Assembly: GCF_001889005.1 (NCBI RefSeq)
Contig: NZ_CP018153.1
Span: 592,501-656,500 of the forward strand
Source of the DNA: Christiangramia salexigens
Lineage (GTDB): Bacteria; Bacteroidota; Bacteroidia; Flavobacteriales; Flavobacteriaceae
DNA length: 64,000 nt
Direction: 5' to 3'
Shown: piece by piece, positions 47,031 to 64,000 of the stretch
Layout of the letters: the number at the start of each line of letters is the position of its first letter
Position numbering within the stretch: the first letter of the stretch is position 1
Notes under the pieces: model-generated
The model's database searches: none
What the model was told of the DNA's origin: nothing
What the model saw: the letters and a program-made list of their open reading frames with translations, nothing else
Translations under genes and position numbers: made by a program

Positions 47031-47537
47031 ATGAAAACGCGGACTTTTAAAATATTGACTTTTATACTTTGTACGGTAATTCTTACATCTTGTTCTAAAG
47101 AGAACATTGAGGATCAAGTAACTTCGTATGACCAGGTAGCTACCAAAAAAGCTGAATATAAATATTCGCAAATGGAGATAGAGATCCTTGAAGATATAAA
47201 CATCTACAGAAAAGCGAATGGTTTAAGCGAGTTAAAAGCTTTAACAGATGTTTCTTTAAAGGCAGAAGATCATAATGATTATATGATTCAGAACGGGAAA
47301 GTAAGTCATGATAATTTTGCAGCCCGAGCTTCTTACTTAATGAATGAAATAGGTGCTAAATCGGTAAGTGAAAATGTAGCTTACGGTTATCATACCGCAG
47401 ATGCTGTAGTAAAAGCATGGTTAAAAAGCAGTGCGCATAAGGAGAATATCGATGGAGATCATACTCACTTTGGTATTTCAGTTAGACAGGATTCAGAAGG
47501 AAAAAATTATTTCACCAATATTTTTATTAAAAAGTAA
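47031..47537 (+). CDS. CAP domain-containing lipoprotein
   Basis: A 168-residue lipoprotein (signal ending VILTSC, Cys about 21). The CAP/SCP domain covers about 45-167. Its conserved pieces are INIYRKANGLSELKALTDVSLKAEDHNDYM, VSHDNF, the SENVAYG motif, and AWLKSSAHKENID with the SxxHxxN histidine. CAP proteins occur in secreted proteins of all domains, and the bacterial role is mostly unknown. The upstream region has two direct copies of ATGTGTAC 30 bases apart (46991, 47021). A terminator follows. Confidence 0.85.
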   Translation: MKTRTFKILTFILCTVILTSCSKENIEDQVTSYDQVATKKAEYKYSQMEIEILEDINIYRKANGLSELKALTDVSLKAEDHNDYMIQNGKVSHDNFAARASYLMNEIGAKSVSENVAYGYHTADAVVKAWLKSSAHKENIDGDHTHFGISVRQDSEGKNYFTNIFIKK

Positions 47538-47567: not shown

Positions 47568-47606
47568 AAAAAGGGTTCAGGCTAGAGGCTGACCCTTTTT
47601 TTTTTG
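47568..47606 (+). terminator. Terminator of the CAP gene
   Basis: Stem AAAAAGGGTTCAG / CTGACCCTTTTT with one bulged base, loop GCTAGAGG, then a long T-run. Nineteen bases including the loop recur in the hairpin at 48166-48200. Confidence 0.8.
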
Positions 47607-48165: not shown

Positions 48166-48200
48166 AAAAAAAGGTTCAGGCTAGAGGCTGAACCTTTTTT
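48166..48200. terminator. Terminator of the giant adhesin-porP-ompA operon
   Basis: Perfect stem AAAAAAAGGTTCAG / CTGAACCTTTTTT with loop GCTAGAGG. T-runs on both strands allow action on the minus-strand operon that ends at 48328. Confidence 0.75.
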
Positions 48201-48327: not shown

Positions 48328-50190
48328 TTACTCTTCCATTTTCACCACGCTAAACATGGATCTTCTGTTGAGTTGGTGATCTTTTTCGCTGCAACGCTGG
48401 CAGTCTATAGCAGGTTTGGTTTCTCCAAACCCCTGATATATTTTAATTCTATCTTTCTTAATTCCTTTTGAGATGAGATAATCGTAAGTAGATTTAGCTC
48501 TTCGCTCGGCCAGTTTTTCATTATAGGCGTTGGATCCTCTTCTGTCGGTATGCGAACCGATCTCGATGACCAGCTGCGGATATTGTTCCTTCATTAAAGT
48601 GACCAGCTTATCTAGCTCTTTCGCTGCATCTGGTCTGATGTTGGACTTGTCAAAATCGAAATAGATATTGTCTATCTCTGCCAGGTATTCCACATCGGCT
48701 ACGGGTTGTAACTGTATGTTATAGATTAGTTCATCCTTATCATCGGCTACCTTGGTATCTACTTGTCCGTTGAAGGTTTGGTATCTGATCTCTTTGGCTT
48801 CTATAGGTAATGTCGTATCACGAGCCACCTCGCTTTGATAATGTCCCAGAGAATCGGTTTCTAAAAAAGCGATCTGTTTTTGATTCTGATCCATTAGTCT
48901 AACCGTAGCCTGAGCTACAGGTTTATTATTAATGGCATCGGTCACCTGTCCTGTAAGGACCAGGGGATTGAGTTTATTGAACACAAAGATGTTATCACTT
49001 GGTCCTTCACGGTTAGTAGAGATATAGCCTTCTCTGGAATCTGCGACCTGGAAATAGGCAAAATCATCCATACTGCTGTTGATAGGTTCTCCTAGATTTT
49101 CCACCCCGCCATTCTCCAGACGAAAGATATCAAACAAGCCTAAGCCTGCATGACCATTGGAGGAGAAGTAAAGGGTACTATCGGCATCTACAAAAGGAAA
49201 GGTCTCATCAAAAGGAGTGTTTACCGGTTCTTCCATATTTTCGATACTGCCAAAGGTGTTTTTTCCGGTGATCGGTACTTTATAAATATCGGTACCGCCC
49301 ATACCTCCCGGCATGTCTGATGCAAAATATAAGGTCTTCCCATCTGGAGAGAGCGCCGGATGCCCCACCGAATACTCATTGGAGTTAAAGGGCAATTCCT
49401 GAACTCCCGTCCATGTATTACCCGATTTGGTGGCGATGTATAATTTTAAATGATTGGTCTTGTTCTTATCCCGTTTGCCTTCTTTCTTACCCAGATAATT
49501 GTTTCGGGTAAAATACATGGTATTGCCGTCAGGACTAATAACCAGCGGACCATCATGGAGTTTGGTATTGATCTCTCCCGAGACAGGATTGATAGCCCCG
49601 GAAGTCTTATCCATCATGTAGAGGTCCAAAAAAGGCTCTCCGGTCCAGCTATAGGTCTTCTCTTTTACACTTACTCCCTGGGCTCTGGCCGATACAAAGT
49701 AAAGTTTGCCTTCTTTTACAAAGACCCCAAAGTCACTCACGCCTGAATTGAATTCGGCAGGCTGCACTCTATAGGTGGCCTTGCTTTTGTACTCGCTTTT
49801 CTCGATCATGGTTTCGATCTCACGGGAGTCTTTTCCACTCTCGAGATATTTCTTCAGCCATTGTCTGGATTCTTCATAGCGTTTTACCCCACGCAGGGCC
49901 TGTGCATATTTGTAATAATACTCAGGCGAGATAGTAGTGTCTTCAATAACATCACCATAATAATGCACGGCATTCTCGGGACTACGCAGCATCATATAAG
50001 AATCGCCTAATCTTTTAGAATTATAAAAAGTATTGTATTCTTTTTCAATAAGTTCTTTATACAATTCTGTTGCTTTTAGATATGCAAAATCATTGTAAAG
50101 TCTGTCTGCCTTTTTTTGCTTGCCACTTTGAGCCTGCGTATTAATTGAAAACGCAAGTATTATAATTAAAAGAGTGTATATTTTTTTCAT
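48328..50190 (-). CDS. OmpA family protein with TPR and beta-propeller (PorE-like)
   Basis: A 620-residue outer-membrane-associated protein. In order: signal peptide (to about 21), TPR-like helices (about 25-125), a PD40-type beta-propeller (about 150-400, with LHDGPLVISPDGNTMYFTRN and GHPALSPDGKTLYFASD), a carboxypeptidase-regulatory-like domain (about 405-500), and a C-terminal OmpA domain (about 510-620; IYFDFDKSNIRPDA, SHTDRRGSNAYNEKLAERRA) that binds peptidoglycan. This is exactly the domain order of PorE of the type IX system, though paralogues with other partners are common. Sixteen bases after the PorP/SprF gene, it probably anchors that machinery or the adhesin. Confidence 0.87.
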   Translation of the reverse strand: MKKIYTLLIIILAFSINTQAQSGKQKKADRLYNDFAYLKATELYKELIEKEYNTFYNSKRLGDSYMMLRSPENAVHYYGDVIEDTTISPEYYYKYAQALRGVKRYEESRQWLKKYLESGKDSREIETMIEKSEYKSKATYRVQPAEFNSGVSDFGVFVKEGKLYFVSARAQGVSVKEKTYSWTGEPFLDLYMMDKTSGAINPVSGEINTKLHDGPLVISPDGNTMYFTRNNYLGKKEGKRDKNKTNHLKLYIATKSGNTWTGVQELPFNSNEYSVGHPALSPDGKTLYFASDMPGGMGGTDIYKVPITGKNTFGSIENMEEPVNTPFDETFPFVDADSTLYFSSNGHAGLGLFDIFRLENGGVENLGEPINSSMDDFAYFQVADSREGYISTNREGPSDNIFVFNKLNPLVLTGQVTDAINNKPVAQATVRLMDQNQKQIAFLETDSLGHYQSEVARDTTLPIEAKEIRYQTFNGQVDTKVADDKDELIYNIQLQPVADVEYLAEIDNIYFDFDKSNIRPDAAKELDKLVTLMKEQYPQLVIEIGSHTDRRGSNAYNEKLAERRAKSTYDYLISKGIKKDRIKIYQGFGETKPAIDCQRCSEKDHQLNRRSMFSVVKMEE

Positions 50191-50206
50191 AATGACTTGG
50201 CTTTAA

Positions 50207-51118
50207 TTAGAAGAAACGAGGAGATTTATACCTGGTCTTTTTCGCTCTTATTTCATATATAAGTAAGATCTCGTGAGAACCGGAAGTATAAGGTCTGATA
50301 TCTGAGATCGGATATTCATAGGCATAACCGGCACGGAAGCCATCAAATAACTGCACATCCAGAAAACCTCCAACTGCATCATCAATTCTGTAATTGGCTC
50401 CCAGGTAGAACTTCTCATTGAAGATCGTGGTTGCCGAAATATCTACCGATAGTGGAGCCCCCTTGGTCGCTTTGAAAAGGGTAGTGGGTCTTAGCTTCAC
50501 ATTATCGCTTAGGTCAAAGACATATCCACCGGTCAGGTAATAATGTACCTGCTCTAAAGCAAGATATTCATTGTATTTGTTATTGTTATTATTGATTAGT
50601 TTAGGAGCTGAACCTCCGATATACCAATTTTGAGCAGAGAGATAAAAACCCACACCAAAATTAGGGGTCCATCGGTTGATCTGGTCTCTAAAGAAAGGGT
50701 CATTTAAGACTTCAGGATCATTAAAGAGTTCTTCCTCAAGATTATAATAACTCATTCCGGCTTTTAGTCCCAATCGCAGGGTAACATCTGCACTCATGTC
50801 CAGGCGATAAGAGAAATCTCCGTAGGCATAGGTGTAGTTTTCATAACCTGCATTGTCATTGATGATAGATAGTCCCAATCCTACTTTATCATTGGTAAGA
50901 GGAGAGTGGACCGAGAGAGTCTGTGTCACAGGAGCTCCTTCGAGGTCTGCCCACTGGCTGCGATGCAATCCAACGATGGAGAGTCCGTCTCTACTCCCGG
51001 CATAAGCCGGGTTAATAGAGATCGTATTATACATATACTGTGTGAACTGAGGGAGCTGTTGTGAGAAACCAGTTCCCGCAACAAACAAAGTCAATATGAT
51101 CAGATATACTTTTTTCAT
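50207..51118 (-). CDS. PorP/SprF family type IX secretion system membrane protein
   Basis: A 303-residue outer-membrane protein with a signal peptide (to about 19). The family marks are clear: QLPQFTQYMYNTISINPAYAGSRD directly after the signal, then GLHRSQWADLEGAP, SVHSPL and VGLGLSI. The C-terminal half is barrel-like (FDLSDNVKLRPTTLFKAT, YEYPISDIRPYTSGSHEILL). SprF of Flavobacterium is needed to secrete the giant adhesin SprB, and such genes normally follow the gene of the protein they serve. Here it begins 12 bases after the giant T9SS type B protein. Confidence 0.92.
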   Translation of the reverse strand: MKKVYLIILTLFVAGTGFSQQLPQFTQYMYNTISINPAYAGSRDGLSIVGLHRSQWADLEGAPVTQTLSVHSPLTNDKVGLGLSIINDNAGYENYTYAYGDFSYRLDMSADVTLRLGLKAGMSYYNLEEELFNDPEVLNDPFFRDQINRWTPNFGVGFYLSAQNWYIGGSAPKLINNNNNKYNEYLALEQVHYYLTGGYVFDLSDNVKLRPTTLFKATKGAPLSVDISATTIFNEKFYLGANYRIDDAVGGFLDVQLFDGFRAGYAYEYPISDIRPYTSGSHEILLIYEIRAKKTRYKSPRFF

Positions 51119-51130
51119 AATTTCCCTTTT

Positions 51131-54100
51131 TTATTTTGTTCCTAAATAGATGAAACCTTGAATAGCTTCCATATTGCTTCCTCTCATCTTAACGAAGTAG
51201 TAGTAGGTACCTGCCGGTAACTGATTTGAACTAGTGAACGACTTTTGAGATTGTCCATCCCAGTTGTTCTGATAGTTCTCAGCTTCAAATACTTTGGCAC
51301 CCCATCTGTTAAAGATCATTACATCGTAAATGAAGTCACATTCCACATCTTTATCTACTACAAAGAAGTCATTTTGATTGTCACCGTTTGGTGTAACCAC
51401 TTTGGAGATACTTCCTTTAATATCTGAAAGGCTACATGGTAATACTACACAGTCGTTATTGATCGATACAGTAACTTCGGTAGTAGATGGGCAAATACCT
51501 TCAAGGTTATAGGTGAAAACATATTCGCCTACTTCAAGCATTGCCGGATCAATATATCCGTCATCAAGTGCGCCAGTATTGGCCGCATCGCTCCAGGTAC
51601 CAGATTTATCAACATCACCAATTAATAATTCGAACAGATCGTAAATTCCATCTGTTTGACAAAGATCTATAGTAGTTGTTTCAATTTCAGTCGCCACAGG
51701 CGCTTCGATAGTTACAAAAGTAACTTCAGAAGTTTGCCCGAATTCATCACGTGCAGTTACTTCATATGTACCAGGTTCAAGATCTGTAAAGATTCCGCTT
51801 TCCTCATAGTTCACACCATCTATACTATAAGTAAGTCCTTCCATGGTCTCTACTGTTATGGTTCCAAACGGTAGAGCACAAGAAGCCTCGGTAGTTACAC
51901 TGGCAGAAGGCGCAGATGGCACTTCAGGTAACTCCTCTTCTTCAACAGTAACTGTGAAATTACAGCTAGTGCTGTTTCCAGCCGCATCGGTTACGGTATA
52001 GGTAACTGTGGTGGTTCCAAGCGGGAATTCTTCTCCAGAAGCAAGTCCCGAGGTTAATTCCACGGTAGTTCCATCACAATTATCAGTAGTGATTATTTCT
52101 GTGTATTCTACCACAGTGGCAGTAGTACCAATTTCCACGATCATGGTGATGTCCTGCGGACACTCTATCGTTGGTGCTTCGGTATCATTTACTGTAACCG
52201 TAAAGCTTTCAGTAGCCACATTTCCATTGATGTCTTTTACCGTATAGGTCACTTGATTTGTTCCAACAGGGAATTCAGTTCCCGATTGAAGACCTTCAGT
52301 AATTTCAACTGTTGAAAGCTCACAATTATCTTTTGCTCCAATCATTTCAAATTCTACTATAGCTCCACATCTACCCGGATCATTATCAACCACAATATCA
52401 TTCATTTCCTCCAGAACCGGCGCTTCATCATCATTTACAGTTACAGTAAAGCTACATTCTGTTGTATTACCAGAAGCATCGGTGGCGGTAAAAGTTATAG
52501 TTGTTGTTCCTACAGGGAATACTTCTCCAGAAGCAGGTCCAGCAGTTTGTTCAACACTTACTTCACCAGAATTATCAAATCCTTGTGGTATAGTAAATTC
52601 TACTACAGCTCCACATTCACCGGCATCCACATTTTGTGTAATAGGTGAGGGGCATTCCAGTGTTGGATCTTCATTATCTTCAACCGTTACTGTAAAGCTA
52701 CATTCGGTAGTATTACCTGCAGCATCTGTTGCAGTGAAAGTAACCGTAGTAGTTCCAATTGGGAACTGAGATCCTGAAGCAGGTCCGCCGGTTTGTTCTA
52801 CGCTTGCTTCACAATTATCGGTCGTGGTAGCATCTTCAAAAGTAACCACAGCATAAGCTTCACCAGTAATGGTATTAATAATGATATTCTCAGGACAGCT
52901 CACTTCAGGAGCTTCGGTATCATTTACTGTAACCGTAAAGCTTTCGGTCGTGGTATTTCCATTTACATCAGTTACTGTATAAGTTACAGTAGTAGTACCT
53001 ACAGGGAAGGTTTCTCCGGAAGCCGGACCTTCTGTAACCTCTACGCTTTCTAAACCACAGTTATCTTTAGCACCAACTACGCCGTATTCTACAACTGCCC
53101 CACAAACTCCCGGGTCACTATTTACAACGATGTTGCTCATATCTTCTGCGATAGGCGCTTCATCATCATTTACAGTTACAGTAAAGCTACATTCTGTTGT
53201 ATTACCAGAAGCATCGGTGGCGGTAAAAGTTATAGTTGTTGTTCCTACAGGGAATACTTCTCCAGAAGCAGGTCCAGCAGTTTGTTCAACACTTACTTCA
53301 CCAGAATTATCAAATCCTTGTGGTATAGTAAATTCTACTACAGCTCCACATTCACCGGCATCCACATTTTGTGTAATAGGTGAGGGGCATTCCAGTGTTG
53401 GATCTTCATTATCTTCAACCGTTACTGTAAAGCTACATTCGGTAGTATTACCTGCAGCATCTGTTGCAGTGAAAGTAACCGTAGTAGTTCCAATTGGGAA
53501 CTGAGATCCTGAAGCAGGTCCGCCGGTTTGTTCTACGCTTGCTTCACAATTATCGGTCGTGGTAGCATCTTCAAAAGTAACCACAGCATAAGCTTCACCA
53601 GTAATGGTATTAATAATGATATTCTCAGGACAGCTCACTTCAGGAGCTTCGGTATCATTTACTGTAACCGTAAAGCTTTCGGTCGTGGTATTTCCATTTA
53701 CATCAGTTACTGTATAAGTTACAGTAGTTGTTCCTACCGGGAACTCAGATCCTGAAACAAAGCCTTCGGTAATTTTCACAGATTGCAGTCCACAGTTATC
53801 TCTTGCTCCAACCATACCGAATTCTACTATAGCGCCACAATTTTCGGAATCATTACTTACAATGATATCATCCATTTCTTCTACTACCGGAGCTTCTGTA
53901 TCATTAACCGTTACAGTAAAACTGCAGTCGGTAGTATTTCCGGCATCATCTGTAGCAGTGAAACTAACTGTTGTTGTTCCAACCGGGAATTCTTCTCCTG
54001 AAACAGGTCCTTCTGTTTGAACAATAGTTGCATTTCCAGAATTATCTGTGATCTCAGGCATGCTGAAACTTACTATGGCACCACAATCACCTGCATCGTT

Positions 54101-57100
54101 ATCTGTAATTACAGGTTGCGGACAGTCAATTGAAGGTCCTTCGGTATCTGAAACCTCCACAGTTACAACGGCTGTATCTGTTCCACCATTTCCATCAGAG
54201 ATGGTATAGGTGAAGGTATCTGTACCTGTAAAGCTCTCATTTGGTATATAAGTAACGGTAGTTCCGTCTGTACTAACCGATCCATTATTAGGTTGAGTAA
54301 GGTCTGAAACAGTTAAGTTATCCCCATCAAGATCTGAATCATTTTCAAGAACGCTGATCTCAATTGTCGAATCCTGATCAATATTCGCGTTATCGTTTAC
54401 GGCAACCGGTGCATCATTGATTGCATTTACAGTTACAGTTACCGTTGCAGTATCAGTTCCACCGTTTCCATCAGAAATCGTATAACTGAAAGTGTCATCT
54501 CCATTAAAGTTATCATTTGGAGAATAGGTTGCGGTTCCATCTGTATTAACGCTTACAGTTCCGTTTGAAGGTTCCTGGCCTGGTTCAATGCTTACCGAAA
54601 GATCATCACCGTCAATATCAGAATCATTATCTAATACGTCTACAATTACATCGATATCTTCATCTGTAATAGCCGTATCATCTTTGGCTACTGGTGCATC
54701 ATTGTCTGCATCTACAGTTACAGTTACCGTTGCAGTATCGGTTCCACCGTTTCCATCAGATACAGTATAGCTAAACGTATCCTCACCATTGAAGTTATCA
54801 TTTGGGGAATAGGTTATAGTGCCATCTGTATTTACGGTTACCGTTCCATTTTCAGGTTCCTGACCTGGTTCTACAGTTACTGTTAGATCATCTCCATCAA
54901 CATCAGAATCATTATCTAATACCTCTACAATTACATCGGTATCTTCATCTGTTTTGGCTGAATCATCTTTAGCTACCGGTGCATCGTTAATAGGATTGAT
55001 ATTGATATCTGTAGCACCATAAACGGTTTCAATAGCATCTGTAACAGAATATACGAAATCACCTGCATCGTCACCTGCATCATAATCAGCCGGTGCGTCA
55101 TATACAAGGTTTTCAAGCTCAGTAGTACTTAAGGTTTGACCAATAACTACTGCAGTTCCATCAGATAAAGTAACTGTACCTAAAGCAGGCAGATCTGTCA
55201 CCTTGATTGTCAATACATCACCATCAATATCCGAAGGTGCAGTTAATCCTAATGGGGTATCAGTGCTTTCTTCATCTACAGTGATCACAGAACTATCGGC
55301 TATAGGAGCATCATTTGTTGCACCTACATTTATAGTTACCGTTGCAGGAGCACTTTCCAGAGTACCATCTGTAATGGTATATGTAAATGAATCTGTTCCG
55401 GAGAAATCGGCATCAGGAGTATAAGTGATCGTTCCGTCAGCATTAACCGTGATCGTTCCATTTGCAGGATCGGTAGTGTTTTCAATAGCAATACTATCTC
55501 CATCAACATCAGAATCATTATTTAATACGTCTACAACTACATCGGTATCCTCATCAGTATTAGCTGAATCATCCTTAGCTACCGGAGCGTCATTAACAGG
55601 TTTAATATTGATGTCTGTAGTACCATACACAGTTTCAATAGCATCTGTAACTGAATATGTGAAATCTCCGGCATCGTCACCTGCATCATAATCAGCTGGT
55701 GCGTCATATACAAGGTTTTCTAACTCAGTAGCGCTTATTGTTTGATCAATCGCTACAGCAGTTCCATCGGATAGGTAAACTGTACCTAAAGCAGGTAAAC
55801 CTGTTACTGTGATAGTAAGTGCATCACCATCTGCATCGGTAGGAGCTGTCAAACCTAATGGATTATCTGTGCTCTCTTCATCTACTGTGATCGCAGAACT
55901 GTCTGCAATCGGCGTATCATTTACGCCATTAATGGTTATAGTGATCACATGTTCAGTTCCGTCAAAACTGGTCACAGTGAATTTCTCAATTTTAGTATCG
56001 CCCTCACCTAAGTACTGAACGTTGGAATTAGGAACGGTATAGGTCCATTCTCCGGTATTTAAAATACTAAGCTGTCCTAAAGCTCCGGTTTCGGCAGCCG
56101 CAGTTCCAGCCTGGAATGAGCTCTCATTTGTATCTCCATCGCTGATGATAAGAGTACCATTTTCAGTTAAGGTTGGATCAGTTTCGTCTTCGGTTACAGA
56201 TCCTGTATCATCACCTGAGAAATCCGGGATATCGTTAACAGGATTAATGGTTATTACAACTTCCGCGGTATTTGAAACAGCTCCGTTATTATCCATAATG
56301 GTATAAAAGAAACTATCTGTGGTGGTTTCAGATCCATCATGAGTATACTCAATGGTTCCATCTCCGTTATCTACTAAAGTTCCATTAGATGGAGGAGTGG
56401 TAATGTTAATAGATGTAAGATCTAAAGTCCCATCTATATCAGAGTCGTTAGCTATTACATTTACATCCTTAGCCTCACCTTCATTAAGCGTTAATACATC
56501 ATCTTGTGCAACCGGTGCATCGTTAACAGGATCTATAATAATATCTGTGGCGCCGAAAACAGATTCAATAGCATCTGCAACTGAATATGTGAAATCTCCG
56601 GCATCGTCACCCGGTTTATAATCAGCTGGTGCGTCATATACAAGGTTTTCTAACTCAGTAGCACTTAATGTTTGATCAATCGCTACAGCAGTTCCATCGG
56701 CCAGATAAACTGTACCTAAAGCAGGTAAACCTGTTACTTTGATAGTAAGTGCATCACCATCTGCATCGGTAGGAGCTGTCAAACCTAATGGATTATCTGT
56801 GCTCTCTTCATCTACAGTGATCGCAGAACTGTCTGCAATCGGCGCATCATTTACGCCATTAATGGTTATAGTGATCACATGTTCAGTTCCGTCAAAACTG
56901 GTAACAGTGAATTTCTCAATTTTAGTATCGCCCTCACCTAAGTACTGAACGTTAGAATTAGGAACGGTATAGGTCCATTCTCCGGTATTTAAAATACTAA
57001 GCTGTCCTAAAGCTCCGGTTTCGGCAACCGCACTTCCAGCCTGGAATGAGCTCTCATTTGTATCTCCATCGCTGATGATAAGAGTACCATTTTCAGTTAA

Positions 57101-60100
57101 GGTTGGATCAGTTTCGTCTTCGGTTACAGATCCTGTATCATCACCTGAGAAATCCGGGATATCGTTAACAGGATTAATGGTTATTACAACTTCCGCGGTA
57201 TTTGAAACAGCTCCGTTATTATCCATAATGGTATAAAAGAAACTATCTGTGGTGGTTTCAGATCCATCATGAGTATACTCAATGGTTCCATCTCCGTTAT
57301 CTACTAAAGTTCCATTAGATGGAGGAGTGGTAATGTTAATAGATGTAAGATCTAAAGTCCCATCTATATCAGAGTCGTTAGCAATTACATTTACATCCTT
57401 AGCCTCACCTTCATTTAGCGTTAATACATCATTTTTTGCTACCGGAGCATCATTTTGAGGAGTTATAGTAATATTTACTTCAGCAGTATCTGTTAAAGCA
57501 TTGTCTGTAAGGGTATAAGTGATAACCGGAACCGTTCCATCATAATTTAATACAGGAACGAAAGTTAAATCTCCATTGGATTCAATTTTAAGGCTTCCAA
57601 CCGAAGTAATAGTAGCTGTCTCACCTGGCAAATAAGCAGTAGGATTGCCATTAATGATGAACTGTTCTATTTCAATCAGGTCTCCATCAACATCAGTATC
57701 AACTCCGGAACCATTATCGATAGAAATTATATTACCGGTTAAGGTCTCATCTTCATCAATAAGGAAATTATCGTCAGTCGCATCAGGCGCATCATTTACA
57801 GGTCTCACTCTAATATTCAGTGTGCTGTAATCTGTTCTGCTATTTGTTAGGTCAGGCCCGTCTTTGATTCCGTAAACAATACCTGGAATATCTCCATTAT
57901 AATTCAGCGCAGGATCAAAAGTGAAACTACCATCATCAGCTATGTTAAGAACTCCCACATTTGGAATAGTCAAATCATTACCTGCAAGTACAGATGTTAC
58001 AATTCCACCAGAACCATCATTCAAACCAAATTCATGAACAAATAATTTATCATTATTGCCATCGAAGTCATTATTCAATAATCCAGCGGCTGCATCTATA
58101 TTCAGAGGTGTATCCTCATTTGTAGTATATGCATCAGGATTTGCTTCAGGTTTAATTTCAGTATGAGGTATAGTTACCTGAACTTCAGCAATATCAGTTA
58201 ATCCACTTGGATCTTGAATTGTATATTCGAAGAAATACGTACCCTTTGCTCCAACGCCAGGCGGAGGAGAAAATGTGATGGTATTGTCAGCAGCATTAAT
58301 AGTTGTAGATCCCAATTGAGGACCAGACTCGCCTTTAGTAGGCTGAGTTACTGATATAATCGTGATGTTATCACCGTCTACGTCGTAATCATTTTTTAAT
58401 ACCAGGATAATAACATCTACATCAGGATTACTTGCAGCTTTATCATCTACAGCAACAGGGGCATCATTAACAGGATTAACGCTTAATTTTAATAAGCCAT
58501 TATCGGTAAGACTTCCGTCGCTAATAGTATATACCACCACAGGGAAATCACCTGTGAAATCCTGGAAAGGAGTGAAAATATAACTACCATCTGTATCTAT
58601 CTGAAGGCTTCCTTCCTCAGGAACTGTAGCAACAGTTCCTGCAGGATAGGTAATTCCATTAATTGTAAAACTAGAAACAGAAAGCGGATCGGAATCCAGA
58701 TCTGAATCGTTTGCAAGTACGCCATTAGTAGCATCAACAATAAGAATGACATCTTCATCTGTATTATTAATATCGTCTACAGCTAGAGGCTTGTCATTAA
58801 CCGGATTCACAGTAATAGATACCGTAGCAAGGTTACTCTCCTGTGTATCCAGATCCTTTACAGTATAAGTAAAGCTATCGTTTCCTTCAAAATTTGCATT
58901 TGGGGTATAAGTAATTTCCCCGGTAACCTGATCTACGGAAATAGAACCATTTGTCGGATTTGAAACAACATTTACTGATGTAATATCAATATTGTTATCA
59001 CAGTCTGTATCATTTCCTAATACGCCAATATCTACAGGAGAATCTTCATTGGTAATAGCAGTGTCATCAACTGCAACAGGTGTGCTTATAACAGTTACAT
59101 TTTGAGTACAGGTGATGGTATTGTTAGCATCATCTTTAGCCGTCCATGTTACTACAGTAGTTCCCACAGGGAAACTTGCTGGGGCATCGTTTGTAAAAGT
59201 AAGATCGGTATCACAGTTATCTGTAGCGGTTGGGGTACCTAAGTTAACGTTAGTTGCATCGGCAGCGCAATCACCGCTATCAGCATTTACCGTAACATCG
59301 GCAGCACAGCTTGTAATTACCGGACTTTGGTTGTCTACTACAGTTACATTTTGAGTACAGGTGATGGTATTGTTAGCATCATCTTTAGCCGTCCATGTTA
59401 CTACAGTAGTTCCCACAGGGAAACTTGCTGGGGCATCGTTTGTAAAAGTAAGATCGGTATCACAGTTATCTGTAGCGGTTGGGGTACCTAAGTTAACGTT
59501 AGTTGCATCGGCAGCGCAATCACCGCTATCAGCATTTACCGTAACATCGGCAGCACAGCTTGTAATTACCGGACTTTGGTTGTCTACTACAGTTACATTT
59601 TGAGTACAGGTGATGGTATTGTTAGCATCATCTTTAGCCGTCCATGTTACTACAGTAGTTCCCACAGGGAAACTTGCTGGGGCATCGTTTGTAAAAGTAA
59701 GATCGGTATCACAGTTATCTGTAGCGGTTGGGGTACCTAAGTTAACGTTAGTTGCATCGGCAGCGCAATCACCGCTATCAGCATTTACCGTAACATCGGC
59801 AGCACAGCTTGTAATTACCGGACTTTGGTTGTCTACTACAGTTACATTTTGAGTACAGGTGATGGTATTGTTAGCATCATCTTTAGCCGTCCATGTTACT
59901 ACAGTAGTTCCCACAGGGAAACTTGCTGGGGCATCGTTTGTAAAAGTAAGATCGGTATCACAGTTATCTGTAGCGGTTGGGGTACCTAAGTTAACGTTAG
60001 TTGCATCGGCAGCACAATCACCGCTATCAGCATTTACCGTAACATCGGCAGCACAGCTTGTAATTACCGGACTTTGGTTGTCTACTATAGTTACATTTTG

Positions 60101-63100
60101 AGTACAGGTGATGGTATTGTTAGCATCATCTTTAGCCGTCCATGTTACTACAGTAGTTCCCACAGGGAAACTTACTGGGGCATCGTTTGTAAAAGTAAGA
60201 TCGGTATCACAATTATCTGTAGCGGTTGGGGTACCTAAGTTAACGTTAGTTGCATCGGCAGCGCAATCACCGCTATCAGCATTTACCGTAACATCGGCAG
60301 CACAAGTTGTAATTACCGGACTTTGGTTGTCTACTACAGTTACATTTTGAGTACAGGTGATGGTATTGTTAGCATCATCTTTAGCCGTCCAAGTTACTAC
60401 AGTAGTTCCCACAGGGAAACTTGCTGGGGCATCGTTTGTAAAAGTAAGATCGGTATCACAGTTATCTGTAGCGGTTGGGGTACCTAAGTTAACGTTAGTT
60501 GCATCGGCAGCGCAATCACCGCTATCAGCATTTACCGTAACATCGGCTGCACAGCTTGTAATTACCGGACTTTGGTTGTCTACTACAGTTACATTTTGAG
60601 TACAGGTGATGGTATTGTTAGCATCATCTTTAGCCGTCCAAGTTACTACAGTAGTTCCCACAGGGAAACTTGCTGGGGCATCGTTTGTAAAAGTAAGATC
60701 GGTATCACAGTTATCTGTAGCGGTTGGGGTACCTAAGTTAACGTTAGTTGCATCGACAGCGCAATCACCGCTATCAGCATTTACCGTAACATCGGCAGCA
60801 CAAGTTGTAATTACCGGATTCTCTACATCATTCACCGTTACGGTTTGCGTTTTAGGTTCAGCACTATTTCCATTTACATCGGTAACATTCCAGGTTATGG
60901 TTGTGATTCCAGCCGGGAAAGGATCGGTTAATGCTAAACCATCGCTTCTGGTTCCCGTTGGAGCTCCAGCTCCACAGTTATCGCTAACATCAGCTGCTAC
61001 TATGCTTACTAATGCATCACAAGAATTCGGATCATTGTCTCTAGTAATATTAGCCTTAGGCGTGATCACTGGTAATTCATTATCACTTACAGTAATATCA
61101 ATACTATCTGTAACCTCATTATTTGCTACATCTGTTGCTGTATAGGTGATTCTGGTAACACCGATATTAAGGGTTTGGGTTCCAACCTGATCGTTTCCGG
61201 AACCGCTTGTTGCACCAGACATTACCCAGGAAATACTGGCATTACAGTTGTCATCAAAACTAACGTTCGGTACATCCACATCTGCGGTACATACTGCCGG
61301 ATCTGTAGTTTGAGATAAATTTCCACCTACAGTTAATGTAGGAAATTCATTGTCATTCACAGTAACCTTCTGTGTTTTAACAACAGCATTATTTCCGTTT
61401 ATATCTATTGCTCTCCAGGTAATGGTCGTAGTCCCCAGGGTAAATGGATCTGTTAAAGATAAAAGATCGCTTCTGGTCCCTGTTGGAGCTCCAACGCCAC
61501 AATTATCGGTCACTTCAGGAGCTTCAATTGCGATTACAGCAGAACATTTGTTTGGGTCTACATTTGCAACGATATCTGCTTTAGGAGTAATTACAGGGAT
61601 TTCATTATCATTAACTGTAATTTCCATTACATCCTGAGCAGTATTACCTGCACCATCCGTGGCAGTATAAGTTATAACAGTAGTTCCTTCATTTAAATTT
61701 TGTGTAAGGGCCTGGCCTGATCCGGATCTGGAAGTGGCACCGGTCATTACCCAGCTAAGGTTTGCATTACAATTATCGTCGAAGCTAGCATTTGGGATAG
61801 CAACGCTGGCAGTACACAAACCTGGATCTGTTGGCTGAGAGAAATCAGCTCCAGCCGTTAGGCTTGGGTTCTGAGTATCATTAACCCTAACAGTCTGAAT
61901 CTTTGTTTCTGCAATATTTCCATTTACATCCTGAACATTCCAGGAGATGGTAGTAATGCCTAATGGATATGGATCAGATAACGCAAGACCATCACCTCTT
62001 GTTCCGGTAGGCGTTCCCACTCCACAATTGTCTGAAACATCTGCATTAACAATATTTACAGATGCTGAACATAAGTTCGCAGTATTTCCAACTACAATAT
62101 CATCTTTTGGAGTTATTACCGGTTTTTCATTATCGTTTACAGTAATTACGATCGCGTCTTGTACCGAATTATTTGCAGCATCCTTAGCGGTATACGTAAT
62201 TGTGGTAATTCCCCTGTTTAAGGTTTGAGTTCCTGCCTGTCCGGTTCCCGAACCAGTAGTTGCTCCGCTCATTTCCCATTCAAGTTCGGCAGAACAATTA
62301 TCATTAATATCAGCATCTGGAACCTGTACAGAGGCAGTACAAACACCTGTATCCGTATCCTGAGCAAAATCAGCCCCTGCGGTTAAAGAAGGGTTTTGTG
62401 CATCGGTTACGGTAACAGTTTGGGTTTTAGATACTGCATCGTTACCATTCTCATCCTGAACATTCCAGGTTATCGTGGTAACTCCAATTGGGAATACGGC
62501 GGTTAAAGCCAGTCCGTCACTTCTTGTTCCGGTTAAAGTTTCTAATCCGCAGTTATCAGTTGCACTTGCAGGCGTAATATTTACTAAGGCTCCACAGGTA
62601 TCTGTGTCGTTGTCTACCGAGATATTAGCCTGAGGAGTAATTACCGGTATCTCGTTATCGCTAACGGTAATAATCATCGAATCTTCTGCAATTAGACCGG
62701 CACTGTCTGTAGCAGTATATGTAATAGTGGTAATTCCTTTATTTAGAGTTTGAGTACCGGCCTGGCCAGTTCCCGAAGCATTAGTAACTCCAGTCATTTC
62801 CCAGCTAATACTAACATTACAGTTATCTGAAAATGTAGCCACTGGAATATCAACTCTTGCAGTACAAAGTCCGTTGTCTGTATTTTGAGTGATATCAGAT
62901 CCGGCTGTTACAGTTGGATGCTGCGTATCAGTTACAGTAACCGTTTGAGTTTTAGGCTCTGCAGGGTTTCCGCTGGCGTCGCTTACATTCCATGTAATAG
63001 TGGTTGTTCCTACAGGGAAGGCCTCGTTAAGTGCCAATCCATCTTCTCTGGTTCCAATTGGTGTTCCCACACTACAGTTATCTGTAGCATCTGCCGGAAC

Positions 63101-64000
63101 AATATTTACTATTGCACCGCAATTGTTTAGATCATTATCTACACTAATATTTGCTTTAGGAGTGATGACAGGTATAGTGGTATCTTCCACCGTAATAATT
63201 TGTACAACATCCAAACTATTTCCGCCATTATCGGTCACCCTATAAGTTCTGGTGATCGTTTCAGGGTTGAAATTATCATCACTTACATCTCCAATATGGC
63301 TTACACTTGGTGCATCAGAAGAACCTGTGAAACAATTATCGGAAACATTGGTCACCACATTCTTATTAGCAGCTGGAATATCAGAAGCACATTCCACGCT
63401 AAGTGGAGCAGGAGCTGTTGCCGTTGGAGCTTCATCATCCTGAACAATAATATCCTGAGTACAAGTACTGGTATTATCATCGTTATCAGTTACAGTCCAT
63501 GTAACGGTTGTTGTACCCAATGGGTAAACTCCCGAAGCATCATCTGTACCTGTATAATCGTTAACAATAGATTTGATCCCACCGTTATCTGAAACTGATG
63601 GAGTTGGAATGCTAACAGTAGCGCTACACATCCCCGCATCCACAGATTCCAGTCTGGTAGGAGCACAGTTTATTACGGGATCTTCCTGATCTACAACTAT
63701 AATATCCTGAGAACAGGTACTGGTATTTCCATGTATATCGGTCACCGTCCAAGTAATGGTGGTAGTCCCTAAAGGATAATTGTCTGAAGCGTCACTTGTG
63801 TTATTATAGTCATTTGTGATCGTATCCACGCCACAGTTATCTCCAATTGAAGGAGCAGGAACAGTAACATCGGCATTGCTTTGACCTGCTGCTGTAGCAG
63901 TTGTGATATCTCCACTACAGGTAATTGATGGGGCTTCGCTGTCTGAAACTGTTACATCCTGAGTACAGGTGGCTGTATTTCCAGCACCATCTGTAACCGT
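51131..64000 (-). CDS. Giant HYR/cadherin/VCBS-repeat adhesin with T9SS type B sorting domain (5' end outside the window)
   Basis: 4289 residues are visible, and the frame is open to the right edge, so the N-terminus and signal peptide are missing. From N to C: HYR domains (64000-63181); nine ~87-residue HYR domains in two alternating types (63180-60821); seven almost identical 83-residue HYR units (60820-59078); cadherin-like/tandem-95 domains with VCBS repeats, partly duplicated (59077-54130); HYR domains, partly duplicated (54129-51930); a SprB-like segment; and the gliding-motility-associated type B sorting domain (VVTPNGDNQNDFF, IFNRWGAKVFE, GTYYYFVKM). It is exported by the type IX system and should form a long calcium- and disulfide-stabilised fibre. 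Ligand unknown. Confidence 0.93.
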   Translation of the reverse strand, partial: TVTDGAGNTATCTQDVTVSDSEAPSITCSGDITTATAAGQSNADVTVPAPSIGDNCGVDTITNDYNNTSDASDNYPLGTTTITWTVTDIHGNTSTCSQDIIVVDQEDPVINCAPTRLESVDAGMCSATVSIPTPSVSDNGGIKSIVNDYTGTDDASGVYPLGTTTVTWTVTDNDDNTSTCTQDIIVQDDEAPTATAPAPLSVECASDIPAANKNVVTNVSDNCFTGSSDAPSVSHIGDVSDDNFNPETITRTYRVTDNGGNSLDVVQIITVEDTTIPVITPKANISVDNDLNNCGAIVNIVPADATDNCSVGTPIGTREDGLALNEAFPVGTTTITWNVSDASGNPAEPKTQTVTVTDTQHPTVTAGSDITQNTDNGLCTARVDIPVATFSDNCNVSISWEMTGVTNASGTGQAGTQTLNKGITTITYTATDSAGLIAEDSMIITVSDNEIPVITPQANISVDNDTDTCGALVNITPASATDNCGLETLTGTRSDGLALTAVFPIGVTTITWNVQDENGNDAVSKTQTVTVTDAQNPSLTAGADFAQDTDTGVCTASVQVPDADINDNCSAELEWEMSGATTGSGTGQAGTQTLNRGITTITYTAKDAANNSVQDAIVITVNDNEKPVITPKDDIVVGNTANLCSASVNIVNADVSDNCGVGTPTGTRGDGLALSDPYPLGITTISWNVQDVNGNIAETKIQTVRVNDTQNPSLTAGADFSQPTDPGLCTASVAIPNASFDDNCNANLSWVMTGATSRSGSGQALTQNLNEGTTVITYTATDGAGNTAQDVMEITVNDNEIPVITPKADIVANVDPNKCSAVIAIEAPEVTDNCGVGAPTGTRSDLLSLTDPFTLGTTTITWRAIDINGNNAVVKTQKVTVNDNEFPTLTVGGNLSQTTDPAVCTADVDVPNVSFDDNCNASISWVMSGATSGSGNDQVGTQTLNIGVTRITYTATDVANNEVTDSIDITVSDNELPVITPKANITRDNDPNSCDALVSIVAADVSDNCGAGAPTGTRSDGLALTDPFPAGITTITWNVTDVNGNSAEPKTQTVTVNDVENPVITTCAADVTVNADSGDCAVDATNVNLGTPTATDNCDTDLTFTNDAPASFPVGTTVVTWTAKDDANNTITCTQNVTVVDNQSPVITSCAADVTVNADSGDCAADATNVNLGTPTATDNCDTDLTFTNDAPASFPVGTTVVTWTAKDDANNTITCTQNVTVVDNQSPVITTCAADVTVNADSGDCAADATNVNLGTPTATDNCDTDLTFTNDAPVSFPVGTTVVTWTAKDDANNTITCTQNVTIVDNQSPVITSCAADVTVNADSGDCAADATNVNLGTPTATDNCDTDLTFTNDAPASFPVGTTVVTWTAKDDANNTITCTQNVTVVDNQSPVITSCAADVTVNADSGDCAADATNVNLGTPTATDNCDTDLTFTNDAPASFPVGTTVVTWTAKDDANNTITCTQNVTVVDNQSPVITSCAADVTVNADSGDCAADATNVNLGTPTATDNCDTDLTFTNDAPASFPVGTTVVTWTAKDDANNTITCTQNVTVVDNQSPVITSCAADVTVNADSGDCAADATNVNLGTPTATDNCDTDLTFTNDAPASFPVGTTVVTWTAKDDANNTITCTQNVTVISTPVAVDDTAITNEDSPVDIGVLGNDTDCDNNIDITSVNVVSNPTNGSISVDQVTGEITYTPNANFEGNDSFTYTVKDLDTQESNLATVSITVNPVNDKPLAVDDINNTDEDVILIVDATNGVLANDSDLDSDPLSVSSFTINGITYPAGTVATVPEEGSLQIDTDGSYIFTPFQDFTGDFPVVVYTISDGSLTDNGLLKLSVNPVNDAPVAVDDKAASNPDVDVIILVLKNDYDVDGDNITIISVTQPTKGESGPQLGSTTINAADNTITFSPPPGVGAKGTYFFEYTIQDPSGLTDIAEVQVTIPHTEIKPEANPDAYTTNEDTPLNIDAAAGLLNNDFDGNNDKLFVHEFGLNDGSGGIVTSVLAGNDLTIPNVGVLNIADDGSFTFDPALNYNGDIPGIVYGIKDGPDLTNSRTDYSTLNIRVRPVNDAPDATDDNFLIDEDETLTGNIISIDNGSGVDTDVDGDLIEIEQFIINGNPTAYLPGETATITSVGSLKIESNGDLTFVPVLNYDGTVPVITYTLTDNALTDTAEVNITITPQNDAPVAKNDVLTLNEGEAKDVNVIANDSDIDGTLDLTSINITTPPSNGTLVDNGDGTIEYTHDGSETTTDSFFYTIMDNNGAVSNTAEVVITINPVNDIPDFSGDDTGSVTEDETDPTLTENGTLIISDGDTNESSFQAGSAVAETGALGQLSILNTGEWTYTVPNSNVQYLGEGDTKIEKFTVTSFDGTEHVITITINGVNDAPIADSSAITVDEESTDNPLGLTAPTDADGDALTIKVTGLPALGTVYLADGTAVAIDQTLSATELENLVYDAPADYKPGDDAGDFTYSVADAIESVFGATDIIIDPVNDAPVAQDDVLTLNEGEAKDVNVIANDSDIDGTLDLTSINITTPPSNGTLVDNGDGTIEYTHDGSETTTDSFFYTIMDNNGAVSNTAEVVITINPVNDIPDFSGDDTGSVTEDETDPTLTENGTLIISDGDTNESSFQAGTAAAETGALGQLSILNTGEWTYTVPNSNVQYLGEGDTKIEKFTVTSFDGTEHVITITINGVNDTPIADSSAITVDEESTDNPLGLTAPTDADGDALTITVTGLPALGTVYLSDGTAVAIDQTISATELENLVYDAPADYDAGDDAGDFTYSVTDAIETVYGTTDINIKPVNDAPVAKDDSANTDEDTDVVVDVLNNDSDVDGDSIAIENTTDPANGTITVNADGTITYTPDADFSGTDSFTYTITDGTLESAPATVTINVGATNDAPIADSSVITVDEESTDTPLGLTAPSDIDGDVLTIKVTDLPALGTVTLSDGTAVVIGQTLSTTELENLVYDAPADYDAGDDAGDFVYSVTDAIETVYGATDININPINDAPVAKDDSAKTDEDTDVIVEVLDNDSDVDGDDLTVTVEPGQEPENGTVTVNTDGTITYSPNDNFNGEDTFSYTVSDGNGGTDTATVTVTVDADNDAPVAKDDTAITDEDIDVIVDVLDNDSDIDGDDLSVSIEPGQEPSNGTVSVNTDGTATYSPNDNFNGDDTFSYTISDGNGGTDTATVTVTVNAINDAPVAVNDNANIDQDSTIEISVLENDSDLDGDNLTVSDLTQPNNGSVSTDGTTVTYIPNESFTGTDTFTYTISDGNGGTDTAVVTVEVSDTEGPSIDCPQPVITDNDAGDCGAIVSFSMPEITDNSGNATIVQTEGPVSGEEFPVGTTTVSFTATDDAGNTTDCSFTVTVNDTEAPVVEEMDDIIVSNDSENCGAIVEFGMVGARDNCGLQSVKITEGFVSGSEFPVGTTTVTYTVTDVNGNTTTESFTVTVNDTEAPEVSCPENIIINTITGEAYAVVTFEDATTTDNCEASVEQTGGPASGSQFPIGTTTVTFTATDAAGNTTECSFTVTVEDNEDPTLECPSPITQNVDAGECGAVVEFTIPQGFDNSGEVSVEQTAGPASGEVFPVGTTTITFTATDASGNTTECSFTVTVNDDEAPIAEDMSNIVVNSDPGVCGAVVEYGVVGAKDNCGLESVEVTEGPASGETFPVGTTTVTYTVTDVNGNTTTESFTVTVNDTEAPEVSCPENIIINTITGEAYAVVTFEDATTTDNCEASVEQTGGPASGSQFPIGTTTVTFTATDAAGNTTECSFTVTVEDNEDPTLECPSPITQNVDAGECGAVVEFTIPQGFDNSGEVSVEQTAGPASGEVFPVGTTTITFTATDASGNTTECSFTVTVNDDEAPVLEEMNDIVVDNDPGRCGAIVEFEMIGAKDNCELSTVEITEGLQSGTEFPVGTNQVTYTVKDINGNVATESFTVTVNDTEAPTIECPQDITMIVEIGTTATVVEYTEIITTDNCDGTTVELTSGLASGEEFPLGTTTVTYTVTDAAGNSTSCNFTVTVEEEELPEVPSAPSASVTTEASCALPFGTITVETMEGLTYSIDGVNYEESGIFTDLEPGTYEVTARDEFGQTSEVTFVTIEAPVATEIETTTIDLCQTDGIYDLFELLIGDVDKSGTWSDAANTGALDDGYIDPAMLEVGEYVFTYNLEGICPSTTEVTVSINNDCVVLPCSLSDIKGSISKVVTPNGDNQNDFFVVDKDVECDFIYDVMIFNRWGAKVFEAENYQNNWDGQSQKSFTSSNQLPAGTYYYFVKMRGSNMEAIQGFIYLGTK
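52419..53728 (-). repeat. Exact 575-bp duplication in the adhesin gene (735-bp period)
   Basis: Bases 52419-52993 and 53154-53728 read as identical, 735 bases (245 codons) apart. They encode two HYR domains and part of a third. The first difference at the 3' side is at 52994/53729. The intervening 160 bases differ from their counterparts. The identity at synonymous sites shows a recent duplication or gene conversion. Confidence 0.88.
55588..57447 (-). repeat. 930-bp tandem duplication of a cadherin-VCBS module
   Basis: Copies at 55588-56517 and 56518-57447. Each encodes about 310 residues: a cadherin-like domain (LTLNEGEAKDVNVIANDSD), a VCBS repeat (TENGTLIISDGDTNESSF.. GEWTYTVPNSN) and a further module (DEESTDNPLGLTAP). 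The copies are almost but not quite identical. A third, more diverged copy of the last module lies at about 54980-55320. Confidence 0.85.
59078..60820 (-). repeat. Seven-copy 249-bp tandem array in the adhesin gene
   Basis: Seven in-frame units of exactly 249 bases encode 83-residue HYR domains (PVIT[ST]CAADVTVNADSGDC ... DDANNTITCTQNVTVVDNQ). Units differ by only a few bases each. The first in protein order starts N-P-V-I and the last ends I-S-T-P, where the others have V-D-N-Q. Each has four Cys, enough for two disulfides. Such identity favours slippage or recombination, so copy number should differ between strains. Confidence 0.92.
60821..63180 (-). repeat. Alternating A-B HYR repeats in the adhesin gene
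   Basis: Nine diverged domains of about 87 residues alternate. Type A (PVITPKANI..NDxxxC..DNCGVGTPTGTRSDGLAL..TTITWNV) occurs five times. Type B (PSLTAGADF..TDxGxCTA..DNC..LSWEMSGAT..GTQTLN..TTITYTA) occurs four times. The repeat unit that was copied in evolution was therefore the A-B pair of about 520 bp. Confidence 0.8.

Follow-up and report, generated by a model that had tools for sequence, protein, structure and literature searches.

Giant type B adhesin cassettes with PorP/SprF-family carriers and PorE-like, putative wall-anchor proteins in Christiangramia salexigens

A very long adhesin gene, followed directly by genes for a PorP/SprF-family carrier and a PorE-like protein, raises the question of whether the encoded fibre would be pulled along the gliding track or moored to the cell wall. 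Two papers of November 2025 explained the two situations separately, namely the hook of mobile adhesins on the track (PMC12635249) and the static adhesins of operons with a PorE gene (PMC12618676). The stretch of DNA analysed here, called the window, comprises 64,000 nucleotides of the genome of Christiangramia salexigens, a single 2.98-Mb contig, and corresponds to C1:592501-656500. A preliminary description of the window had proposed that the three genes form one functional unit, which delivers and fixes one fibre on the cell surface, possibly for gliding.

Genes and signals of the cassette

All three genes are located on the minus strand, in the order adhesin (adh1, 51131..64000), carrier (PorP1, 50207..51118) and PorE-like protein (PorE1, 48328..50190). 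The ORF positions leave gaps of 12 bases between adh1 and PorP1 and of 16 bases between PorP1 and PorE1, and the cassette is closed by an intrinsic terminator at 48167..48200 on the same strand (13-pair stem and T-run, z -5.65). The list of a stock terminator scanner did not contain the stem at about 48167-48200. Order, gaps and single terminator, as described previously, were thus confirmed by the ORFs and the 13-pair stem.

The window contains the C-terminal 4,289 of the 5,280 residues of adh1. Sequence to the right of the window was fetched for the N-terminus, and the ATG was found at C1:659473, which bore out the expectation of a fibre of more than 4289 residues. Pfam domains of adh1 are HYR, HYR_4C, cadherin-like/Big_9 repeats and a C-terminal CHU_C domain (PF13585, E 1.6e-23); TIGR04131, the "T9SS type B sorting domain", is matched with 44.7 bits (cut-off 35). 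The sorting domain takes up the last ~90 residues (51143..51409, minus strand, converted from residues 4198-4286) and stands, as in type B substrates of the T9SS, at the extreme C-terminus. An array of 6.9 repeats of 249 bases (59091..60818, minus strand, 98% matches) encodes units of 83 residues.

PorP1, a protein of 303 residues, matches PorP_SprF (PF11751, E 2.2e-84) and the PorP family model TIGR03519 (267 bits, cut-off 90.55). It possesses no cysteine, and therefore no Cys-X-Cys in the periplasmic tail, the mark of an SprF; cysteine is likewise absent from the other three of PorP1-4 of this genome. The final five residues are SPRFF (codons at 50210..50224, minus strand), a tail motif of the PorE-linked carriers of this family. 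Among the matches listed, the nearest named carrier genes were those of Christiangramia/Gramella, at four loci, with identities of 87-91% to PorP1. For the carrier L008 of Gramella sp. KN1008, which is 87% identical to PorP1, a 14-strand barrel was predicted by AlphaFold2 (mean pLDDT 74.8), with a C-terminal tail that is disordered (pLDDT below 50) past the last predicted strand. The top Foldseek match of this model among solved structures was chain F of 8gl6, a T9SS substrate complex; we take this chain to be PorV.

PorE1 (620 residues) showed Pfam matches to OmpA and to a PD40 propeller above cut-off and to a carboxypeptidase-regulatory domain (CarboxypepD_reg) slightly below it; it has a helical, TPR-like part, and a TPR_16 match, below cut-off, was obtained with the copy PorE2 alone. 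The PorE architecture of TPR, propeller, carboxypeptidase-regulatory and OmpA domains is present, residues 6-608 being collinear with the NCBI PorE model NF052230 (E 3.7e-101). Since the score was 339.4 bits, which is under the cut-off of 600, the protein is named PorE-like instead of PorE. Its best full-length NCBIfam match was NF053607, the CHU_0125 OmpA-like outer membrane integrity protein (416.6 bits, residues 1-617), also under the 620-bit cut-off of that model. The C-terminal domain of P. gingivalis PorE (6TOP) was the best PDB sequence match for the OmpA-like domain (48397..48663, minus strand; E 1e-22) and also the best match by fold for the OmpA domain of the PorE-like protein of a relative; peptidoglycan binding is predicted for the domain of PorE1. 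The signal peptide, with the sequence ...NTQAQSGKQ, contains neither a cysteine nor a lipobox, and PorE1 is thus not an outer-membrane lipoprotein; lipobox-like patterns were found in 2 of 86 PorE-like proteins of the relatives and in 2 of 44 of the survey described below.

The co-occurrence of the three genes was checked in relatives by searching genome contigs with PorP1. The best 80 of 536 confirmed loci were kept; since they were chosen by similarity, the figures stand for conservation and not for an unbiased rate. A complete trio was present in 79 of these best 80 of 536 loci, and in the 80th the contig ends. The same 80 loci contain 82 PorP genes. In 81 of them a PorE-like gene comes directly downstream, in 80 an adhesin gene ends directly upstream, and 79 have both neighbours; in the three incomplete cases the contig, or the sequence retrieved, breaks off at the locus. 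The gap in front of the carrier measured 0-20 bases in these loci, that behind it -47 to 53. All 82 carriers terminate in PR[F/Y]F and are free of cysteine past residue 20. Spacing, terminator and recurrence in this set therefore lend good support to the proposal of one functional unit of adhesin, carrier and wall anchor.

We consider it probable that the cassette is transcribed as a unit and serves a single, very long and stationary adhesin, which would be exported by the T9SS, captured by PorP1 and anchored to the wall by PorE1. By analogy with relatives, the adhesin would enter the periplasm with its signal peptide and would be guided through the T9SS, across the outer membrane, by the type B domain at its C-terminus. 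The cognate barrel, PorP1, would take the type B domain from the translocon and remain attached, so that the fibre is kept in the outer membrane. PorE1, presumably soluble in the periplasm, would rest with its TPR/propeller half on PorP1 and with its OmpA domain on peptidoglycan, and would so pin the fibre to the wall, away from the pull of the gliding track. A complex of PorE, PorP and the type B cargo PG1035 was described for P. gingivalis, and anchoring of non-mobile type B proteins via PorP-PorE-like pairs was proposed in the same work (PMC9143113).

Tandem cassettes and other copies in the genome

A second complete cassette is present on the same strand, with an adhesin of 3,055 residues (TTG start), a carrier of 303 and a PorE-like protein of 623; it lies upstream of adh1, with 826 bases between the end of its last gene and the adh1 start. 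Stem-loops with T-runs were found behind PorE1 (one) and PorE2 (two), which suggests that each of the two tandem cassettes is probably a transcription unit of its own. The third complete cassette is located at C1:2760k (1,314, 310 and 554 residues), and a carrier behind an adhesin of 4,994 residues at C1:2145k has no PorE neighbour. Altogether the genome contains five PorP/SprF genes and five CHU_C proteins, and four of the carriers stand directly behind an adhesin. The fifth carrier (C1:1814712-1815773) is an orphan without PorE and the only Cys-X-Cys carrier of the genome (tail ...YSCKCPAINN). The fifth CHU_C protein, of 418 residues (L005, C1:2884284-2884514), has no adjoining carrier gene; by elimination, the two may be partners.

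The neighbourhood of the orphan carrier (L086, C1:1808396-1815773) includes genes which we take to be PorG-like (a small protein, by place and a CYCF tail), BamA-like, OmpH/Skp-like and MurI-like. Presumed MurI-like and OmpH-like genes were also seen beside the PorE-less carriers L148 and L167 of other genomes.

Three terminator-like stems, at 47580-47590, 48179-48189 and C1:660180-660206, have the loop CAGCCTCTAGCC in common. An extended pattern of this loop occurs three times in the genome, each time at the adhesin-cassette locus. The copy at 47580-47590 sits behind a facing gene (47031-47537), whose product, as we presume, resembles a CAP-domain protein. A stretch between two terminator copies was considered as a relic of another, third cassette; this was rejected, as it is dissimilar to the other intergenic region except for the stem-loops and one 13-base match.

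Full-length PorE-like proteins are confined to the three complete cassettes, other matches in the genome being to the OmpA domain alone. With this distribution, the earlier view of a dedicated anchor separate from the core T9SS is not warranted. In line with a proposal for PorE of P. gingivalis, the PorE-like protein could even serve mainly to anchor the energising ring or the track of the T9SS to the wall, its place next to the adhesin being historical and the cargo being held by PorP alone. Such a role would fit with the absence of full-length PorE-like proteins outside the cassettes, and with the reports that PorE is not needed for formation of the PorP-PG1035 complex and that small amounts of PorK and PorN are co-purified with it (PMC9143113). 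It appears improbable to us, since in the relatives (best 80 of 536 loci) each complete cassette has one PorE-like gene, immediately after the carrier, and since fusions of a carrier with SPOR or OmpA domains, described below, would achieve the same in a single chain. Anchoring of the adhesin itself by PorE1 is therefore the reading which we follow.

The two tandem cassettes differ in the similarity of their parts: identities are 96.7% for PorP and 94.8% for PorE, and 71% for the sorting domains. At fourfold-degenerate sites, 111/131 are identical in PorP, 139/151 in PorE codons 61-420 and 55/65 in the rest of PorE; the values are low for PorE codons 1-60 (4/11) and for the sorting domain (9/22, a small count). 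Comparison with six relatives gave fractions of 0.30-0.50 for PorP and 0.25-0.50 for PorE; in the five relatives that have an adhesin end, the sorting domain gave 0.28-0.63. It therefore seems that the adhesins separated long ago and that carrier and anchor became alike at a later time, with an unconverted island left at the 5' end of porE. The same is seen in a four-cassette array of another genome (G037), in which PorP identities were 95.7-100%, PorE 99.5-99.7% and sorting domains 70-85%, with 27-80% for the adjoining adhesin (five pairs). Homogenisation was not strong in the tandem pairs of genomes G016 and G022, with 81 and 85% for PorP, 77 and 44% for PorE, and 72 and 58% for the sorting domains, respectively. 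The four nearly identical carrier/PorE pairs of G037 are located at C1:1968-11500 and 3803423-3812958, close to the two ends of one contig, and their adhesin ends are different.

Being nearly identical, PorP1 and PorP2 should be interchangeable, each serving both adhesins; crosstalk between related pairs was described in work on F. johnsoniae (PMC12618676). If so, one interchangeable mooring would serve a changing set of fibres, and a duplicated cassette could be a way for a cell to diversify its fibres on a constant mooring.

Carrier tails, PorE neighbours and the gliding track

For a survey of carriers, every third of 40 genomes of the family was taken (14 genomes), with all 100 PF11751 matches; three carriers of the present genome were added, giving 103. 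PorE-like proteins were detected with a profile made from the 80-locus set and two proteins of the present genome. A PorE neighbour was found for 44 of 53 carriers with a PRxF tail, for none of 22 with Cys-X-Cys (1,367 or more bases of downstream sequence in each case), for none of 18 fused carriers (>450 residues) and for none of 10 others; Fisher's test of PRxF versus Cys-X-Cys gave p 3.9e-12, with kinship ignored. The nine PRxF-tailed carriers without PorE include PorP3 of the present genome and L159; the latter, counted as PRxF, has PRW at its end and belongs to the Cys-X-Cys clade of the tree described below. All 44 PorE-adjacent carriers possess PR; the residue before it is S in 34, T in 7 and N in 3, and the two residues after it are FF in 29, YF in 14 and FY in one.

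The genome contains a gene for SprA and one for GldK (604 bits), the only cysteines of the latter being at the lipobox and at position 332. Cys332 is presumably the invariant cysteine which is Cys343 in F. johnsoniae. A T9SS and a likely cysteine acceptor hence exist in this genome. Together with the type B domain and the SprF-family carrier, these genes would be compatible with a mobile, SprB-like gliding adhesin on a GldJ/GldK/GldN track, the more so as residual track contact was described for SprF without cysteines (PMC12635249). According to the same source, the link to the moving track is a disulfide between the Cys-X-Cys of the SprF tail and GldK, whose Cys343 is invariant. As PorP1 has no cysteine, its fibre is most likely static and wall-anchored. 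Mobile cargoes are reported to be without a PorE neighbour (PMC12618676), and the 22 Cys-X-Cys carriers of the survey agree with this. Gliding, which had been named as a possible function, is thus very unlikely, and it was set aside because of the cysteine-free carrier and the PorE neighbour.

A carrier tree of 104 rows was constructed with a quick method after removal of the tails; the fragment L185 was left out and two window carriers were added. The tree splits into a clade of fused carriers, a mostly Cys-X-Cys and a mostly PRxF clade, and it offers only three independent pairs for PRxF versus PorE (two in the same direction, none opposite, one with no difference). The tail rule as a statistical law was therefore rejected. 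Within the PRxF clade a switch is represented by L134 alone, which belongs to a starred set of 12 rows that holds the window carriers, although on a long branch of unsure placement. Its tail is SCKCKNLYN; the end of a type B adhesin is directly upstream, no PorE was found in 1,779 bases downstream, and the next gene is facing.

In a wider test, 38 of 72 matches were chosen, of which 30 were readable, the other eight showing no ORF at the position predicted. Four of the 30 belong to the same family and come from three additional genomes. Three of these four carriers have PorE, with the tails TPRFF, SPRFF and SPRFF, and one has none. Outside the family, a PorE-like neighbour was present for 4 of 26 readable carriers, with the tails DPRFF, LRHF, CPRL and CPIL; the carrier L223, with the tail SSPRYF, has none, and many PorE-less carriers end in CPRF or CPKF. 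The association of PR[F/Y] tails with PorE is a pattern at the level of the family, and it is weaker outside.

Docking of the tail on PorE was modelled with AlphaFold2, using the PorP-PorE chain of Gramella sp. KN1008 read through the stop, and was unsupported (tail pLDDT below 50). The chain had two good halves (mean pLDDT 83.2, pTM 0.56) whose mutual placement was not confident; as the carrier has no free C-terminus in the read-through chain and the model was based on a shallow alignment (65 rows), docking may nevertheless take place.

Of the 18 fused carriers of the survey, 11 were scanned, and a C-terminal SPOR match was obtained with six (L166, L168, L171, L173, L182, L186) and with none of the other five. 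In the first batch, four of eight matched with E up to 0.001, above the curated cut-off; in the second, two of three matched at about 0.01, below it. The SPOR-matching carriers belong to one starred clade of 18 long carriers. In another genome of the same class (G077), all three long carriers scanned (L220, L221, L231; 573-648 residues) consist of a PorP barrel, thrombospondin-type-3 repeats and OmpA. SPOR and OmpA domains are peptidoglycan binders, and by their domain content the fused carriers look like a carrier and a wall anchor in one chain.

From these patterns we infer that the C-terminal tail of the carrier may help to decide between wall and track. A more comprehensive scheme, which we put forward tentatively and regard as rather doubtful as a whole, would have the carrier C-terminus act as an address label: PR[F/Y] for PorE and the wall in this family, Cys-X-Cys for the GldK track, and fused SPOR or OmpA for the wall directly. 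It would include the gene-converted carrier and anchor as a shared mooring for diverging adhesins, and carriers like L134 would suggest that a change of the tail, together with loss of PorE, can take a lineage from the wall to the track. The chances are only a little short of even that the PR[F/Y] tail merely marks a clade or serves as a signal for outer-membrane assembly, with no part in choosing PorE. Consistent with this are the distribution of the tail classes by clades, with the three independent pairs mentioned, and the disorder of the tail in both models. Outside the family, PRFF was found in one of the four PorE-linked carriers, which makes a marker of the clade more likely and an address less likely. 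On the other hand, the last predicted strand ends before the tail; PR is present in all 44 PorE-adjacent carriers of the survey and in all 82 of the relatives (best 80 of 536 loci), and carriers of the other tail classes are without PR. A role of the tail is also indicated by L134, a CKC-tailed carrier which lacks PorE and falls, though on a long branch, in the 12-row clade of the window carriers. The genome patterns join the two explanations of 2025 in a testable family rule, by which the carrier tail and the next gene would predict whether a giant fibre glides or is static.

Relation to known systems

The PorE-PorP-cargo complex, the operon type, the distinction between static and mobile cargoes and the disulfide to the track are already known (PMC9143113, PMC12618676, PMC12635249), and what had been suggested as a distinct variant of the SprB system is of a kind already published in the first two of these. 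The present analysis adds the tail classes, the fusions with wall-binding domains and the homogenised tandem cassettes; in the literature searched, with subscription papers and supplements outside the search, no account of the PR[F/Y] tail, SPOR-fused carriers or homogenised cassettes was found.

In F. johnsoniae, six porP-like genes are located beside porE-like genes (PMC9143113), and five operons of type B cargo, SprF-like and PorE-like genes were described, with Fjoh_3952 as a static cargo and Fjoh_3950 as PorE homologue (PMC12618676). The cassette of the window has the same cargo type, SprF-like carrier, PorE homologue and gene order as Fjoh_3952-3951-3950. Unlike in those operons as described, the adhesin here has 5,280 residues; the cassette seen here is also duplicated in tandem, with carrier and anchor homogenised between the copies. 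With PorE-PorP-PG1035 of P. gingivalis, the cassette shares the type B cargo, the PorP barrel and the TPR/propeller/OmpA protein; P. gingivalis PorE, however, is a lipoprotein (PMC9143113), whereas PorE1 is without a lipobox and reaches 339 of the 600 bits of the PorE model. SprB-SprF of F. johnsoniae likewise combines a giant, repetitive type B adhesin with a barrel of the same family (PMC12635249), but SprF is bound to GldK by the disulfide of its Cys-X-Cys, whereas PorP1 is cysteine-free and has a PorE-like gene alongside.
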